This document shows positions 1 through 5,620 of a stretch of 64,000 bases of DNA, piece by piece. The notes below the pieces were generated by a model that saw only the letters and a list, made by a program, of their open reading frames with translations, did not search any database and was not told where the DNA came from. Source of the stretch: Paracoccus tegillarcae (lineage in GTDB: Bacteria > Pseudomonadota > Alphaproteobacteria > Rhodobacterales > Rhodobacteraceae); contig NZ_CP025408.1 in NCBI RefSeq assembly GCF_002847305.1, forward strand, positions 3,245,001 through 3,309,000. Direction: 5' to 3'. The stretch's first letter is position 1. Each line of letters starts with the position of its first letter. Both the position numbers and the translations under genes were made by a program.

Positions 1-213
1 TAGTAGTGTCAACTCGGCATCAGCGCTTACTAAGAACTGTAGCCCTCCGATCAGTGCAGCGACAACGAACAAAGAGAGCCGCTCTAACTGCTTTTGAAAC
101 CGCAGTCGTTCAATTATCTCATTTCGATACTGTATAAACTCTTGCAGAAGCGTTGCGTGGACGACGTCGATGGATTGCCGCTCTGCTACATTTTTGGGCT
201 CACGACCAGTCAT
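1..213 (-). CDS. N-terminal part of an unknown membrane protein (runs off the window)
   Basis: An open frame of 71 codons runs from an ATG at 213 to the left edge without a stop, so only the N-terminus is present. Its ATG overlaps the stop of the glycosyltransferase upstream (ATGA, 210-213), a strong sign of translational coupling. Residues about 25-45 are polar and could form a short amphipathic or coiled helix. Residues about 46-62 (LSLFVVAALIGGLQFLV) look like a membrane segment. I do not recognise a family. Its coupling suggests a role with the glycosyltransferase, perhaps in envelope glycan synthesis or export, but this is inference only. Confidence 0.6.
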   Translation of the reverse strand, partial: MTGREPKNVAERQSIDVVHATLLQEFIQYRNEIIERLRFQKQLERLSLFVVAALIGGLQFLVSADAELTLL

Positions 214-1439
214 TCTTTCGGCCTCATACCTCTTGGCGTCACTTGCCATTCGTGCCTTCCCAATGCGGAAAGCCTGACTGCATCAAGCGCGACGGCGGAT
301 TTCATCAGTTCATAGAAAGGAAAACACAACACGTACAGGACCGAACTTTTGCTTAGCAGGCCGCTTCGTGTCCCGGTGTTTGAGGTTGCCGCAACCTGTA
401 TGATTGCAACAGAAAGTTGAAGGGGCACAATATGCAACGCCCAATCGAATAGCACGTCCGATGTGTTGATGGACCCAAAAGTGATCACTAAGGCAGCTGA
501 AGTGAAGTAAGTAAGCCATGCAGTAGCGAGAACCACACGTCTCAGATAGATAAGATAGAGCCAATCATACTTTTGACGCCAATTTAGCCTCTTTGAAACT
601 ACAAGATCATGAAAGTGATGCTGTCCAACTTCTAGCCAACCCTTGGCCCAGCGTCGGCGCTGAATCCACCACGAAGTCAACTTGGACGGTGCAAGCTCTG
701 TTGCAATGAGCCAGGGTTTAAAGTGAACTTGGTGTCCCTCGAGATTTGCGCGCACGGAAATTTCAACGTCTTCTACTAGCGAAGCGTTATTGAACTGCAA
801 TGACACCAACTTCTGTCGCGGCCAAATCGCATTTGAACCACAAAAGTAAACGTTACCACCTCCTAAAGCACGAAATTGAAGGCCAACAAGGTATTTGATC
901 TTCGTTTCACTGCCCACAATTTTCTCGAAGAGAACATTCTGATTTCTAGGAAGCGTGACGCCCTGCCAAATTTCATCTCGGGAATGCTGTCTGCAAGCGC
1001 GTTCTAAAACTCTTTCGACGGGATACTCATCTGCATCCAACAGATAGATTAAATCGTTTTGCGCGCATTTTATTGCGGAGTTAAGTTGTGCAAACTTCCC
1101 AACAATTTCCTTTGAGAGTAGAACTCGTAGCTGCCCATGAGATAGTTCAAGTGTTCTTAAATCAGCAAGAACTCTGGAACTTTCAATTGATGCAATGGAA
1201 ACAATCAGTTCATTTTTCTTGTTGAACTCGATTTCCCCAAGAACTTTCCGCACACTATTCAGTAGTATTTCTTCTTCGTTCGGGAGCAGAGCGCACATGA
1301 TTACAGACACAGCGTTTGCTTTCTGCGGTTCTGCATTCGAAATCTCGGCGAATTTAACACGTCCATGTAGTAGAACCCAAACAGACTCAATGAGAACTAA
1401 ACAATAAAGGATCACAAGTGCTGAAAATGCGATGATCAA
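210..1439 (-). CDS. Membrane glycosyltransferase, family 2 (processive-type signature)
   Basis: 409 residues. An N-terminal membrane helix (residues about 1-24) is followed by a GT-A domain with the family 2 landmarks: LLDADEYP (DxD, sugar-nucleotide/metal site), EDVEISVRANLEG (acceptor-side acidic residue) and QRRRW near the C-terminal side of the domain. Several C-terminal hydrophobic segments follow. The QxxRW box is typical of processive enzymes (cellulose, chitin, N-acetylglucosamine polymers) and related lipid-linked transferases, so polymerisation of a surface glycan is likely, but substrate cannot be read. Base composition is unlike the core genes: lines 961-1020 and 1141-1200 hold 30 and 21 G+C of 60, against 45 of 60 at 12541-12600. 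Transfer is likely. The gene downstream overlaps by four bases. Confidence 0.8.
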   Translation of the reverse strand: MIIAFSALVILYCLVLIESVWVLLHGRVKFAEISNAEPQKANAVSVIMCALLPNEEEILLNSVRKVLGEIEFNKKNELIVSIASIESSRVLADLRTLELSHGQLRVLLSKEIVGKFAQLNSAIKCAQNDLIYLLDADEYPVERVLERACRQHSRDEIWQGVTLPRNQNVLFEKIVGSETKIKYLVGLQFRALGGGNVYFCGSNAIWPRQKLVSLQFNNASLVEDVEISVRANLEGHQVHFKPWLIATELAPSKLTSWWIQRRRWAKGWLEVGQHHFHDLVVSKRLNWRQKYDWLYLIYLRRVVLATAWLTYFTSAALVITFGSINTSDVLFDWALHIVPLQLSVAIIQVAATSNTGTRSGLLSKSSVLYVLCFPFYELMKSAVALDAVRLSALGRHEWQVTPRGMRPKE

Positions 1440-1480: not shown

Positions 1481-1822
1481 CTACATCGGGCTTGCGGAAC
1501 CAAGATACCGTACTGAAAGCGCAGGTTCGCTCATTGCCCTGCCTACGGTCAGTAAGCGGGACTGGTCAACGCGTACTTCTCTTTTTCCGCCAACTAACAA
1601 GTAGTGGCGGGACGGGTCGGTTAAGTTGACTTTCTTGATCAGCTTTCGCGCGGCAACAATGTTTTGCTGAGGCGACTTTTCGGGATCACCGCGATAGCGG
1701 TCAAATGCTTTGCGATCTTCAAGTTCGAGTTGGATTGTAGTGAAGGTTCTTTCGCTGCTTCCGGGCTTGGTAGGATCATCGCCGCCAAACAACCGAAACA
1801 ACTCATCCTCCGACTTAATCAT
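1481..1822 (-). CDS. Small hypothetical protein, last gene of the coupled island operon
   Basis: 113 residues with the start at 1822, chosen because this ATG overlaps the stop of the upstream gene (ATGA, 1819-1822), the same arrangement as the other joins of this operon. A longer frame to 1867 exists but would overlap the neighbour by 49 bases. The protein is soluble and charged, with MIKSEDELFRLFGG at the start and a basic middle (NIVAARKLIKKVNL). There is no membrane segment and no motif I recognise. A role with the TGT-like protein is suggested only by coupling. It is followed by 41 bases before the glycosyltransferase, the only non-overlapping join in the island. Confidence 0.55.
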   Translation of the reverse strand: MIKSEDELFRLFGGDDPTKPGSSERTFTTIQLELEDRKAFDRYRGDPEKSPQQNIVAARKLIKKVNLTDPSRHYLLVGGKREVRVDQSRLLTVGRAMSEPALSVRYLGSASPM

Positions 1823-2445
1823 CCTGCACCGGGGTTCAGGGGTCGCAACGAGGCGCGGCGATCCCACATATGAACGCGCTCTGCGCGATCAAAGTCAGGA
1901 GAAAAGAACTTCGCTATTGCTTTGGCAACCCGCTTTGCGACTTTGGTGTCGGGGGCGACAACCACCTCGACCGCGCGCTTGACGGTCACATAGAGAAAGC
2001 CGTCTTCGACACGCTTTCTCTCAATGCTCCAATCGTCGGCTTCCAGCTTTTCAAACGCGCCTTCGTGTTCTTCAAACTGGCTTTCAATGTCCGCCCTACG
2101 TTGCTCATTCACAAGGCTCGAAAATTTAGGAGTCAGAAGCCCTTGCTCTTGGGCGTCTAGTTCGTCGCCGCGTTCATACTTGGCCATGGCTTCATACTGG
2201 TGCTTATGGCGTTCGTTGATCCGGGCCACCTCGGCATCCGCCTTAGCGATCTCATCTTCGATCTCGCTTAGACGGTTCTTGAGGCGGGTGACGCGTTTTT
2301 CCGCAGCAGCTTTGGCCGACACGGTTTCTTCCAGTGCTGTGACAAAGAGGTCGTCGAGACGTGGATTCAACTCTCCATCGGCCACACGCTGCGCAACGGC
2401 GGCGTCTGGGTGGTAGAAGAACCCGTCTGTGTAGGTCTCGTTCAT
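1819..2445 (-). CDS. Coiled-coil hypothetical protein in the island operon
   Basis: 208 residues. After about 40 residues comes a long heptad-like, charge-rich stretch (residues about 40-140, rich in K, R, E, A and L) that should form a coiled coil. The C-terminal third (from about DDWSIERKRVEDGFLYVTVKRAVEVVV) looks like a small beta-containing domain followed by a basic helix. No enzymatic motif is visible. It overlaps both neighbours by four bases (2442-2445 and 1819-1822), so it is almost certainly cotranslated with them. The shape would suit a structural or bridging subunit. Family unknown. Confidence 0.6.
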   Translation of the reverse strand: MNETYTDGFFYHPDAAVAQRVADGELNPRLDDLFVTALEETVSAKAAAEKRVTRLKNRLSEIEDEIAKADAEVARINERHKHQYEAMAKYERGDELDAQEQGLLTPKFSSLVNEQRRADIESQFEEHEGAFEKLEADDWSIERKRVEDGFLYVTVKRAVEVVVAPDTKVAKRVAKAIAKFFSPDFDRAERVHMWDRRASLRPLNPGAG

Positions 2446-3065
2446 GTGACGATTCTGCCCTTAGACGGCTTTACGATCAAGCCTTTTCCACCGGGCAGCG
2501 AAAACGGGGTTGGTGAAGCGTCAGGATCATATGCGGTTGCTACGGACATCACTTTGGCAATAGTGCCGCCGTGCCAATATTGATGATGCTTCTCACCAGT
2601 GCTTTGATACGGAAACTTGACGATGGTGCGCAGGCCATCACGTTTTGCCCGATCAACATAGAATTGGGCGGACGGCTGAATGTCTCGCCCCTCATGCCAA
2701 TACTTCTCAATTAGGGGGCGGCAGTGTTCAGACAGTCGGTTGTCCAATTGCGTTTCGGAGGTGAACCAGCGCCCATCACTCCAAGTGAAGGCAATCCCAT
2801 CGCTGAAATCGCAGAACTCAGGATCGTCACCCATTGCCTTCAAGACGGCGATGTCACCCGCTGTGAAGGTCGCTGCCCCCAACTCTAAACCAATGTCTAT
2901 CGCCACAATCGACTGATTGTCTGAGGCATATAGCAGAGTGCCCGCCAATTCGACGAACCCAAGCCAAGGGAACAGTTTCGTCCCGCGCCCTCGAAATTTG
3001 TTGGCTGTGACAAGCGCACTGAGAAATCCCGCAGGCACAGGAGTTTTGCAGTCGGGACGCGTCAT
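2442..3065 (-). CDS. Hypothetical protein with weak resemblance to sliding-clamp-like folds
   Basis: 207 residues, overlapping the gene before and after by four bases (3062-3065 and 2442-2445). The N-terminal half has alternating strands with a pattern that recalls beta-clamp (DnaN-like) repeats: a small-residue/aromatic helix (LVTANKFRG), then LLYASDNQSIVAIDI, then a helix (AGDIAVLKAMGDDPEF) and a strand-rich piece. This is a by-eye resemblance, not a match. A phage-type processivity or DNA-binding role is one reading and an unrelated beta-rich protein is another. No catalytic motif or membrane segment is seen. Confidence 0.5.
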   Translation of the reverse strand: MTRPDCKTPVPAGFLSALVTANKFRGRGTKLFPWLGFVELAGTLLYASDNQSIVAIDIGLELGAATFTAGDIAVLKAMGDDPEFCDFSDGIAFTWSDGRWFTSETQLDNRLSEHCRPLIEKYWHEGRDIQPSAQFYVDRAKRDGLRTIVKFPYQSTGEKHHQYWHGGTIAKVMSVATAYDPDASPTPFSLPGGKGLIVKPSKGRIVT

Positions 3066-4375
3066 AGCCGTCCATCATATATTTGGTCGGACAGAAATCG
3101 AGCGCGATCCTCTTGAGTCGGATAAGTGCGCACCACTTCGCTAAATGGCGGAAGCAGCACTTTTCCCGCCCCGTCGTATTGCCGCACGCCCGGCGGACGC
3201 CATTCGAACGACTCTGCGAAAGTGCGCAACTCGCCCATGCAGATCAGGCTACGCGCCCGTTGATCCGTTAACGCGAGCGTCCATGGAAAATAGCTCTCGA
3301 CTTTTGCCCGCACCCATTCCCGTTTGCGCTTAGGCAAAAACGATACGTTTCGATCATTGCTGATCATCTTGGATTGAGATTTCAAATCGTAGTCATCCAT
3401 CTCGACACCGATGTGATAGCCACGATACCGAAGCCGTGACCGCTCCACGATATGTTCTCCTGCGCGGTCAAGTTCACCGTTCTCCAACTTCACTAAATTG
3501 AATTTGTCCTGCGGATAAGTCTCATCCTCAACGAGATCGACAGCACCATAGAATCCATGCTCATTCCAAGCAGCAGAATCGCCTGACATAAGATGGGCCT
3601 CACGGATCATGTCGTTGCCCGTGGTGGCAAGACCATGCGTTTGCACATTACAAGCTAAGTCGTGAAGCGCGGTTCGAGCTAGTTGCGCCCATCGCCAACG
3701 CTCGCCTTCTGGCTTCTTATTGTTCGGGGAAAGGCAGAGGTATCCCTTCGCCTGATTAACCACGTCGAGCAGGCGTTGTTGACCTTCGCCTTGATGGAAC
3801 ACAGGCAACACACAATCACCGAACTCAGCACTGAGCGCGGCAAGGTTCCGATCTGATTCCTGAATAGCGGTTTGGAACTCCTGCGGTGTCGGATCACGAT
3901 CCTTCTCGCCGGGGATCACATCCAAATTGATCAACCAAATTTCTTCAAACAAGCCGTCTGCCTCGGTGAGGAAACGCGAATAAGCCGATTTGACCTCATC
4001 GAGCGTTACTGACGCGCTTGCATTCCAAGCCGTGAAGGCACCAGAATCAAGCATCATGTGCGAAGGGCACGAAGGCGTTCGGCTCTGGCTGGCTGCGCGC
4101 AGAGCCTCAGCGTAAGGCACCCACTCATCCTCAATCCCGCGTTGCACCAGCAACGCCTGTTGCTCTTGATCCTTTTGCTCAAGCCTTGCGATGGCCCGTG
4201 GCTCATACTGGCAATAATCGTCAAAGGTCCGAACTCCCGCTTTGACCATGCCAAGCCACTTCATCACCTCAGGCGCATAGGCACCGTGCATCGAGAACAG
4301 CCTTTGTGAGCACACCTGGTTTTCTATCGCTTGAAAGGCGTCGTTCTTTGGCGTGCCGGACATATATAGGTGCAT
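3062..4375 (-). CDS. tRNA-guanine transglycosylase (TGT/DpdA-like) superfamily protein
   Basis: 437 residues, the first gene of the coupled island operon. Motifs in order fit the TGT barrel: LDSGAFTAW (residues 109-117; TGTs have DSGGFQ, whose Asp recognises the deazaguanine), LPVFHQGE (190-197, in place of GLVQGG), THGLATTG (246-253) and SGDSAAW (264-270, where phage relatives have an Asp-Ser-containing motif supplying the nucleophile). These features resemble the phage and island DpdA-like branch, which puts 7-deazaguanines into DNA, more than housekeeping Tgt. The cysteine-rich zinc site of bacterial Tgt is not evident. No queC/D/E/F-type genes occur here, although the island continues to the left. 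The substrate (DNA, tRNA or a free base) cannot be told. Start: first Met; MHLYMSG fits the hydrophobic first strand. Confidence 0.6.
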   Translation of the reverse strand: MHLYMSGTPKNDAFQAIENQVCSQRLFSMHGAYAPEVMKWLGMVKAGVRTFDDYCQYEPRAIARLEQKDQEQQALLVQRGIEDEWVPYAEALRAASQSRTPSCPSHMMLDSGAFTAWNASASVTLDEVKSAYSRFLTEADGLFEEIWLINLDVIPGEKDRDPTPQEFQTAIQESDRNLAALSAEFGDCVLPVFHQGEGQQRLLDVVNQAKGYLCLSPNNKKPEGERWRWAQLARTALHDLACNVQTHGLATTGNDMIREAHLMSGDSAAWNEHGFYGAVDLVEDETYPQDKFNLVKLENGELDRAGEHIVERSRLRYRGYHIGVEMDDYDLKSQSKMISNDRNVSFLPKRKREWVRAKVESYFPWTLALTDQRARSLICMGELRTFAESFEWRPPGVRQYDGAGKVLLPPFSEVVRTYPTQEDRARFLSDQIYDGRL

Positions 4376-4562: not shown

Positions 4563-4584
4563 GCTTTACAACCAAGTGGTTGAT

Positions 4585-4659
4585 TGGCTCCGGCGGTAGG
4601 GATCGAACCTACGACCAATTGATTAACAGTCAACTGCTCTACCGCTGAGCTACGCCGGA
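4585..4659 (-). tRNA. tRNA-Asn (anticodon GTT)
   Basis: 75 bases including an encoded CCA (4585-4587). Acceptor TCCGGCG pairs with CGCCGGA, the anticodon loop is CTGTTAA, and the T arm is GTAGG-TTCGATC-CCTAC. The gene is intact. Its 3' end faces the island at 4375 and leftward, which fits integration of an element at the 3' end of this tRNA gene. Confidence 0.95.
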
Positions 4660-4717: not shown

Positions 4718-5620
4718 TCACATCGCCGCAAAGAGCGAGTGCCATGTGGGTTCCTCGGCCGTGCGGACGGCGCCCAGATTGTTCAGGGCGACCAGATGGG
4801 CAAAGACGTTGCGCGTCGCCGCGGGCATCAGCGCGGGCGGCACATCATAGATCCGGGCTGCCAGGGAGGCCGCGTCGGATGGCGCTGTATCTCGCAGGGC
4901 GGTCAGTATTTGTGCGGTCCGGTCGCGGCGGTGCTGTGCCAGTTCGAACAGACGCTGCTGCGGGTTCTCGATCGCCGGGCCATGTGCGGGAAAAATGCGG
5001 CGCGGCGCCAGGTCGGCCAATCGTTCGAGGCTGCGCATGTAATCGGCGAGATCGCCGTCGGGCGGCGAGATCAGCGTTGACGACCAGCCCATCACGATAT
5101 CGCCGCAAAAGACCAAATCCTCCCAGGCGAAGGACAGGTGATTGCCGGCATGGCCCGGCGTGTGCAGGGCGGTCAGCCGCCAGTCATCGGTCGCGATTTC
5201 TTCGCCGTCGGCCAGCGTGATGTCAGGGCGGAAGGACAGATCCAGCCCTTCACCGCCGCCGGCGCCGCCATGGCCCGCCAGCCGCTGCATGATCGGCGAG
5301 CGCCCGGCCAGCGCGTCGCCAAAGGCCAGAACCGGCGCGCCGGTCTGCGCGGCAAGGGCAGCGGCACCCTCGGAGTGATCGCGGTGTGCGTGGGTGACCA
5401 GAATATGGCTGATCCGCCCGGCCTCGGCTGCCGCCAGAATCGCCGCGCGGTGTTCGGGGATGTCGGGGCCGGGGTCGATCACCGCGATCTGGTTCTCGCC
5501 TATCAGGAATGTGTTGGTGCCCGGGCCGGTCAGCGGCGAGGGGTTCGGTGCCAGCACGAGACGCAGCCCCTTGGGCAAATCGTCCGGCGGCTGAGGCAGG
5601 GCTTTCGCATCGCGTGTCAT
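4718..5620 (-). CDS. Metallo-beta-lactamase-fold hydrolase (LACTB2-like)
   Basis: 300 residues. The metal-binding signature THAHRDH (residues about 76-82) is followed by further MBL ligands in TPGHAGNH and FCGDIVMG, and by HGP near the end of the domain. The C-terminal 70 residues form the helical region found in LACTB2-like MBL proteins. Family members include hydrolases and nucleases; the substrate here is unknown. It reads away from the sensor kinase gene (34 bases between starts), so the two may share a regulatory region. It is the first core-like gene right of tRNA-Asn. Confidence 0.8.
   Translation of the reverse strand: MTRDAKALPQPPDDLPKGLRLVLAPNPSPLTGPGTNTFLIGENQIAVIDPGPDIPEHRAAILAAAEAGRISHILVTHAHRDHSEGAAALAAQTGAPVLAFGDALAGRSPIMQRLAGHGGAGGGEGLDLSFRPDITLADGEEIATDDWRLTALHTPGHAGNHLSFAWEDLVFCGDIVMGWSSTLISPPDGDLADYMRSLERLADLAPRRIFPAHGPAIENPQQRLFELAQHRRDRTAQILTALRDTAPSDAASLAARIYDVPPALMPAATRNVFAHLVALNNLGAVRTAEEPTWHSLFAAM

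Follow-up and report, generated by a model that had tools for sequence, protein, structure and literature searches.

A guanine transglycosylase-like gene beside a tRNA raises the questions of which nucleic acid it acts on, how it reaches that target and why it travels with the genes behind it. The gene lies in a 64,000-nucleotide stretch of the Paracoccus tegillarcae genome, the whole of which is called the window here. An earlier note had taken it for a TGT/DpdA-like transglycosylase, a reading that stands and is extended by the evidence below. The features concerned are:

210..1439, minus strand: family 2 glycosyltransferase, 409 aa (Pfam PF13632, E = 8.5e-19); other cargo, outside the conserved cassette
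1481..1867, minus strand: gene 4, 128 aa if read from the listed GTG (1867), ~113 aa if read from a conserved Met (1822)
1819..2445, minus strand: gene 3, 208 aa; its middle is coiled-coil-like, and a DGFLYVTVKR region is conserved in its C-terminal part
2442..3065, minus strand: gene 2, predicted compact beta-sliding-clamp-like protein, 207 aa; its start overlaps the gene 1 stop by 4 bp
3062..4375, minus strand: gene 1, DpdA-type guanine transglycosylase by family and predicted fold, 437 aa, ATG start
4584..4633: 50-bp direct repeat, the 3' end of tRNA-Asn, perfect; other copy at L003:5608-5657, outside the window
4585..4659, minus strand: tRNA-Asn(gtt), attachment site of the element

Family, fold and substrate of gene 1

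All four motifs attributed to gene 1 (LDSGAFTAW, LPVFHQGE, THGLATTG and SGDSAAW) were found in the minus-strand ORF at 3062-4375, and its start lies ~210 bp behind the 3' end of tRNA-Asn(gtt) (4585-4659, minus strand), in agreement with an island beside this tRNA. Using a profile search, we found that gene 1 matches phrog_887 (E = 1.8e-32, residues 104-396), a profile also matched by the DpdAs of 9g and Dp-1, and that it has 559 homologues at E <= 0.001, of which the best 120 were used for homologue analyses; together, these results indicate that the ORF is not a chance one. The predicted gene 1 model likewise pointed to the TGT barrel, with TGTs at Foldseek ranks 1-7 and in 50 of the 50 listed VIA-align rows, and with ~10% identity to housekeeping Tgt in structural alignments. 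The DpdA structure 7UI4 was absent among the fold matches listed, which excludes nothing. Judged by sequence family and predicted fold, gene 1 adds a new member to the DpdA family. The Pfam TGT profile (PF01702) gave no match to it at E <= 1, searches of Pfam, NCBIfam and PADLOC yielded nothing useful (two weak Pfam rows fell below cut-offs) and a sequence search of solved structures with the gene 1 protein and the gene 1 profile returned no match. When the gene 1 profile was compared by hhalign with the single Tgt sequence of the same genome, the alignment was weak (E = 0.033), yet D110 and D152 were in register.

Residue conservation was counted over 26 aligned gene 1 homologues, the window's own sequence among them. 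D152, H194, Q195, H247 and D266 are invariant (26/26), and D110 is present in 25. The two aspartates that had been singled out for checking, Asp110 and the Asp of SGDSAAW (D266), align in register with the matching motifs in the DpdAs of 9g and Dp-1. Housekeeping Tgt has a zinc site of the Cys3His pattern; its cysteines had been described as not evident in gene 1, and indeed C214 is the only invariant Cys in the 26 aligned sequences, with no Tgt-type cluster. An assignment of gene 1 to housekeeping Tgt was rejected on the missing PF01702 match and Cys3His zinc site. H247 aligns with His196 of 9g DpdA, which passages of PMC6884629 give as the mark separating DpdA from DpdA2. Because H247 is kept in 26/26 sequences, we also rejected DpdA2, the Vibrio phage nt-1 type without His196. 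In the DpdA of a Pelagimonas metagenome-assembled genome (MAG; L004:9983-11314), Gly replaces the active-site Asp110; judging from its sequence, this copy may be inactive, or the change may be an error in the MAG.

Compared with the phage DpdAs of 9g and Dp-1, gene 1 has the same profile family, the same motifs (DSGAF/DSSAY, NxD or ELD, FHxGE, HG or HA, and SxDS) and the same diagnostic histidine (His196/H247). However, it is longer (437 versus 311-317 aa), with ~40-50 extra residues before DSGAF and a longer C-terminal part, and it has three partner genes but neither a clamp-type tail nor adjoining preQ0 genes. Its nearest named phage relatives are annotated 'queuosine tRNA-ribosyltransferase' in Dinoroseobacter phages R5C and R26L and Pseudanabaena phage Pan1 (38-40% over 89% of gene 1); they have an N-terminal part as in gene 1, and such sequences fall in the neighbouring clade of the tree. 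Unlike gene 1, the R5C and Pan1 enzyme genes follow queD, queC, GTP cyclohydrolase and a queF-type gene, and their products carry Q-x-x-L-F-type tails.

No queC, queD, queE or queF family occurs among the Pfam, PHROG, NCBIfam and PADLOC matches of the cassette genes or among the Pfam matches of ten other island ORFs, as expected from the earlier remark that queCDEF is not found nearby. The host genome carries queC and queF elsewhere, and its housekeeping tgt (C1:2819220) is its sole PF01702 match. According to passages of PMC6884629, 9g dpdA expressed alone yields dPreQ0 in plasmid DNA, and the closest proven relatives of gene 1 act on DNA. Given queC and queF in the genome and the dPreQ0 made by 9g dpdA alone, host preQ0 is a plausible substrate of gene 1; we infer that the target is DNA and the role anti-restriction.

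Partner genes, carrier element and relatives

Gene 1 had been placed at the head of an operon with three unknown genes. Three same-strand genes are indeed found behind it, overlapping by 4 bp, but one of them is sliding-clamp-like. This protein, gene 2, has no family in Pfam, NCBIfam or PADLOC and no match in PHROG. Its predicted model is middling (pLDDT 66.9, the second half at low confidence); 48 of the 50 listed Foldseek rows were named clamps or clamp complexes and the remaining two were chains of a mismatch-repair complex. By hhalign, it aligned with a clamp profile at E = 2.4e-7, covering residues 9-136 only; the clamp set comprised seven clamps or presumed clamps from dpdA-bearing phages, its R5C member (annotated as hypothetical) having been chosen by gene position alone. 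Predicted fold and profile support the clamp likeness of gene 2, which may also bind, be put on DNA by a clamp loader and close into a ring there. It shares fold and sequence profile with DnaN and the phage processivity factor phrog_947 but is short for a clamp (207 versus ~330-390 aa) and is encoded with a base-exchange enzyme; at this length, a ring would probably need a trimer of two-domain subunits.

The matches of gene 3 in Pfam, NCBIfam and PADLOC look like coiled-coil noise, and neither gene 3 nor the fused gene 2-3 protein seen in two relatives (a Shimia-type genome and a viral contig) matched the phage records searched. Gene 4 gave one weak NCBIfam row only; its true start is probably the Met at 1822, conserved in relatives, rather than the listed GTG at 1867. 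Its N-terminal motif [FYW][RQ]LFGG, present in five of five cassettes, resembles phage DpdA tails such as QQYLFGGL, and one might speculate that it binds gene 2. No name from the bacterial Dpd restriction-modification island appeared among the PADLOC and NCBIfam matches of the cassette genes, a result that depends on the Dpd models in those libraries.

The four-gene cassette adjoins the tRNA end of a ~14 kb element, whose ends are the two perfect copies of the 50-bp repeat, 13,976 bp apart; the perfect repeats fit a recent insertion. The element encodes a tyrosine-type integrase (PF00589, E = 1.9e-12) and, preceded by an HTH-like gene, a large terminase in two ORFs, an ATPase part (phrog_7579, E = 3.7e-36) and a C-terminal part (phrog_27743, of unknown function, E = 2.8e-32). 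Overlapping ORFs for the two parts lie at L003:13065-14566 in this element and at L014:3787-5234 in the viral contig, and the split is probably natural rather than a frameshift, since it was found in two divergent elements. A Pfam scan of ten larger ORFs of the island, the cassette excluded, identified no capsid or tail family, several of these ORFs having no family at all. GC content is 0.561 in the island, 0.54 in the cassette and 0.623 in the window right of the island. From its gene content, the island appears to be a satellite-like mobile element with an integrase, attachment repeats, a terminase and no recognised capsid gene; capsid-less satellites that carry an integrase, a primase and a terminase belong to what we take to be the PICI-like group. 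Like phage satellites, the element is 14 kb long and has repeats at a tRNA attachment site, genes for a tyrosine integrase and a terminase and an HTH-like gene, and a primase is present in the Sulfitobacter-type relative (Pfam) and a similar ORF in the viral relative (by eye). It differs from them in the large terminase in two ORFs (two elements) and in the DpdA cassette as cargo. Elsewhere in the element, a DUF2971 protein (L003:9661-10587) matches the PADLOC candidate PDC-S31 (E = 4.3e-27) and is possible defence cargo. In the stretches covered on either side of the Pelagimonas, Sulfitobacter-type, Shimia-type and viral copies, tblastn found nothing that matches the glycosyltransferase.

In an empty-site search, 40 of 41 genomes of the genus (own counted) gave some match, the longest taking in the complete right flank and the shortest the tRNA by itself. 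None showed a clean empty site, and only the own genome covered positions 1-111 of the query, which held 155 bp of left flank. A second element may lie in tandem at the tRNA, because this 155-bp flank has no full match in 40 congeners; by eye, the left flank at L003 ~5108-5530 resembles the final part of an ATPase of the conjugation coupling type. One congener (G1038) has a ~14-kb island at the same tRNA-Asn that shares some core genes with the window's element, including a 375-aa relative (34%) of its 429-aa ORF. The cargo of that island (L055:5838-7218) is a type II restriction enzyme (PADLOC, E = 3.5e-112) with a methylase, which makes restriction a real force at this tRNA-Asn.

DpdA and the three partner genes were found together in the window, the Pelagimonas MAG (L004), a Sulfitobacter-type genome (G141, L024), a Shimia-type genome (G547, L038) and an IMG/VR viral contig (L014/G1125), and seven further DpdA entries appear to lie on the same contigs as gene 2 or gene 3 entries, to judge from identical lengths of their longest contigs. 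The Pelagimonas island (DpdA 82%, genes 2-4 80-83%) is 5.67 kb long and has perfect 51-bp tRNA-Lys(ttt) repeats, no integrase match and one element gene remaining as a fragment. The Sulfitobacter-type copy (DpdA 53%) has a frameshifted gene 2, whose later part runs in frame into gene 3, followed by gene 4, a primase-terminase ORF and an integrase beside a 45-bp tRNA-Asn fragment; the 997-aa ORF (L024:12310-15303) joins a TOTE-type primase (Pfam) to a terminase C part and is apparently a deletion fusion within a related element. In the Shimia-type genome (DpdA 39%, gene 4 30%), genes 2 and 3 are fused into a 347-aa protein (34% and 27%), and a 50-bp tRNA-Asn fragment lies ~13.6 kb away. The viral contig (DpdA 38%, fused genes 2-3 34% and 30%, gene 4 28%) continues after the cassette with the terminase C part, the terminase ATPase part, an HTH-like gene and a gene for 212 aa; counted from the cassette, the window's element has them in this order too. 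Further on, the contig has a primase-like ORF and, next to a 46-bp tRNA-Asn fragment, an integrase (35%). The element core had no match in the 14 other viral loci.

The cassette is not intact everywhere, as the Gly at position 110 in Pelagimonas and the gene 2 frameshift in the Sulfitobacter-type copy indicate, and genome G278 retains DpdA pieces only, behind the same tRNA-Asn. DpdA of the window's kind was found in 4/394, 4/390, 1/385 and 2/391 genomes of four overlapping samples, counts that include the own genome each time and remnants. No relative of gene 2, of fused gene 2-3, of gene 3 or of the terminase C part came up in scans of viral contigs, although these scans demand exact peptide patterns and missed L014, which has the fused gene and the terminase C part. 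A plasmid search also found none.

Candidate roles of the cassette

We consider it somewhat probable that the four genes form a clamp-assisted DNA-modification cassette of a satellite-like element, protecting its DNA from restriction. Gene 1 would cut guanine from DNA and insert a 7-deazaguanine (preQ0 or preQ1) taken from the host queuosine pathway, and gene 2 would hold or recruit gene 1 on DNA, probably during or just after replication; the modification may in this way be delivered by a ring-shaped sliding clamp. Genes 3 and 4, to judge from their co-conservation and from the 2-3 fusion, would be cofactors of the gene 1-gene 2 complex. Many phage relatives of the enzyme have, in place of such a partner, a C-terminal tail of the clamp-binding type and would rely on the replication clamp of the phage. 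Once the element was packaged and in a new cell, its modified DNA would resist restriction enzymes, as proven phage DpdAs suggest. What sets the cassette apart as a new variant is that an enzyme of base exchange and a clamp-like protein of its own are carried together by a satellite-like element. It also shows a 7-deazaguanine enzyme among the cargo of mobile elements whose integration sites are tRNA genes and in which no capsid gene was recognised.

Interference with helper phages is common among satellites, and gene 2, a shortened clamp-like protein, might instead be a decoy clamp that turns the replication machinery of a helper or rival phage to its own use or poisons it, with DpdA as a separate anti-restriction gene; phage clamp genes near dpdA also serve as plain replication genes. 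This is unlikely, given that DpdA and gene 2 are paired across divergent cassettes, that genes 2 and 3 are fused in two of five and that in phages, too, dpdA is repeatedly found with a clamp gene. Defence is another reading, in which the cassette, instead of shielding the element, modifies or damages incoming phage DNA or marks self DNA for a partner nuclease. The restriction enzyme and methylase on the congener island at the same tRNA-Asn, the PDC-S31 match of the DUF2971 protein and the statement, in passages of PMC6884629, that bacterial dpdA is often part of a restriction-modification gene cluster all speak for it. We nonetheless find it improbable, as PADLOC has no match for genes 1, 2 and 4 and weak coiled-coil-type matches for gene 3, and no nuclease family is convincingly recognised in genes 2-4.

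A passenger in decay, with no present function in this strain, would explain the D110G change in Pelagimonas, the Sulfitobacter-type frameshift, the DpdA pieces in G278 and the rarity of the gene (4/394, 4/390, 1/385 and 2/391 genomes, with the own genome and remnants counted and the samples overlapping). In the window, though, the four frames are open, the motifs are intact and the perfect repeats at the element ends fit a recent insertion, so that decay seems very unlikely here. Least credible is that gene 1 acts on tRNA or another RNA and that its site beside tRNA-Asn(GUU), a queuosine tRNA, is meaningful. The TGT fold and the neighbouring tRNA fit this proposal, but the tRNA is the attachment site, DNA is the target of the closest proven relatives, a housekeeping tgt is already present in the genome and one partner gene is clamp-like. 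A role tied specifically to tRNA-Asn as a queuosine tRNA was rejected, since the Pelagimonas cassette uses tRNA-Lys(ttt), and an RNA target in general is highly improbable.

Tails and clamp neighbours in other DpdAs

Clamp-assisted modification, the reading we prefer for the cassette, may extend beyond it. DpdA base exchange could be clamp-guided and replication-coupled in general, with phage DpdAs docking on the phage clamp via a Q-x-x-L-F-type tail and the satellite lineage having given up this tail for a clamp-like subunit of its own. The satellite would then mark its own new DNA (or that of its helper) independently of any one replication machine, and host preQ0 or preQ1 would suffice for the marking. 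This generalization is tentative and rather doubtful, the case for it being made from sequence motifs and gene neighbourhood. If correct, the phage DpdA tail and the clamp-like satellite partner would give a simple answer to how DpdAs reach guanines.

Q-x-x-[LM]-[FL] is the textbook clamp-binding pattern. The tail motif was first noticed by eye in alignments, and the strict pattern was counted afterwards over the 120 listed homologues, grouped into 32 cassette-like ones, chosen by rank and identity, 7 of fused type, told by their tail sequence, and 81 others, which are mostly phage-like, mostly from unnamed contigs and in some cases partial. Counting related and hence non-independent sequences, Q..[LM][FL] occurs in the last 15 residues of 54 of the 81 others and is missing in 27, compared to 3 of the 2073 remaining 15-residue windows in these proteins, 0/32 cassette-like and 0/7 fused-type homologues. 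Docking of gene 1 on gene 2 is unsupported by any motif, because the tail is absent from all 39 cassette-like and fused-type sequences; a private tail motif for the cassette clade, a loose pattern set after looking that fits 19/32, was discarded. The phylogeny gave a similar division: a clade with the cassette DpdAs (34 rows, support 90/82) has no tail, and the adjoining phage-type clade (38 rows, support 92/53) has it in 30, by a slightly wider pattern (Q..[LIM][FL]). The tree had 82 rows (from the 120 listed homologues, it took in the even-numbered entries of at least 350 aa and 18 hand-picked ones) and was rooted at the midpoint, with long branches that make the outgroup order unsure; P0032, P0035, P0104 and P0110, counted among the 81, fall on its cassette side. 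Among 15 relatives on viral contigs, some of them related or repeated and one (L012) apparently R5C, the strict tail occurs in 8; L018, L019 and L022 end in the clear clamp-type tails QDTLFDG, QETLFGV and QDTLFAL.

Gene neighbourhood was compared in 12 phage records, in 7 of which (9g, VpKK5, MS1, RHEph04, Dp-1, Pan1 and ZHS) a clamp gene adjoins dpdA or lies a few genes off. Among eight phages chosen once the idea had arisen, the strict tail is present in two of four with a clamp neighbour (VpKK5 and MS1, not RHEph04 and ZHS) and in none of four with a ParB neighbour (Typha, Lars, phi38:2 and Mufasa8); it was found in none of 122 annotated dpdA neighbours in eight phages, with cut genes, some short genes and later genes left out. 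Together with 9g, Dp-1, R5C and Pan1, the four clamp-neighbour phages have the strict tail in 5/8, and a looser pattern that covers 9g, RHEph04 and ZHS as well (8/8) was picked after seeing them. In T4, alpha-glucosyltransferase co-purifies with the clamp gp45, and the amount of glucosylation is set mostly by expression and mostly not by clamp binding, according to passages of PMC13216743. In the literature records, mainly titles and abstract openings, we found none linking DpdA or 7-deazaguanine to a sliding clamp; a search on the clamp-binding motif with phage and DNA modification likewise found none, and the word 'clamp' is absent from the 2019 DpdA paper. In Typha, Lars, phi38:2 and Mufasa8 (L046, L047, L048 and L050), no clamp gene was seen near dpdA in the short stretches examined, and a ParB-like gene is adjacent or one gene off, which might be another way of bringing DpdA to DNA.
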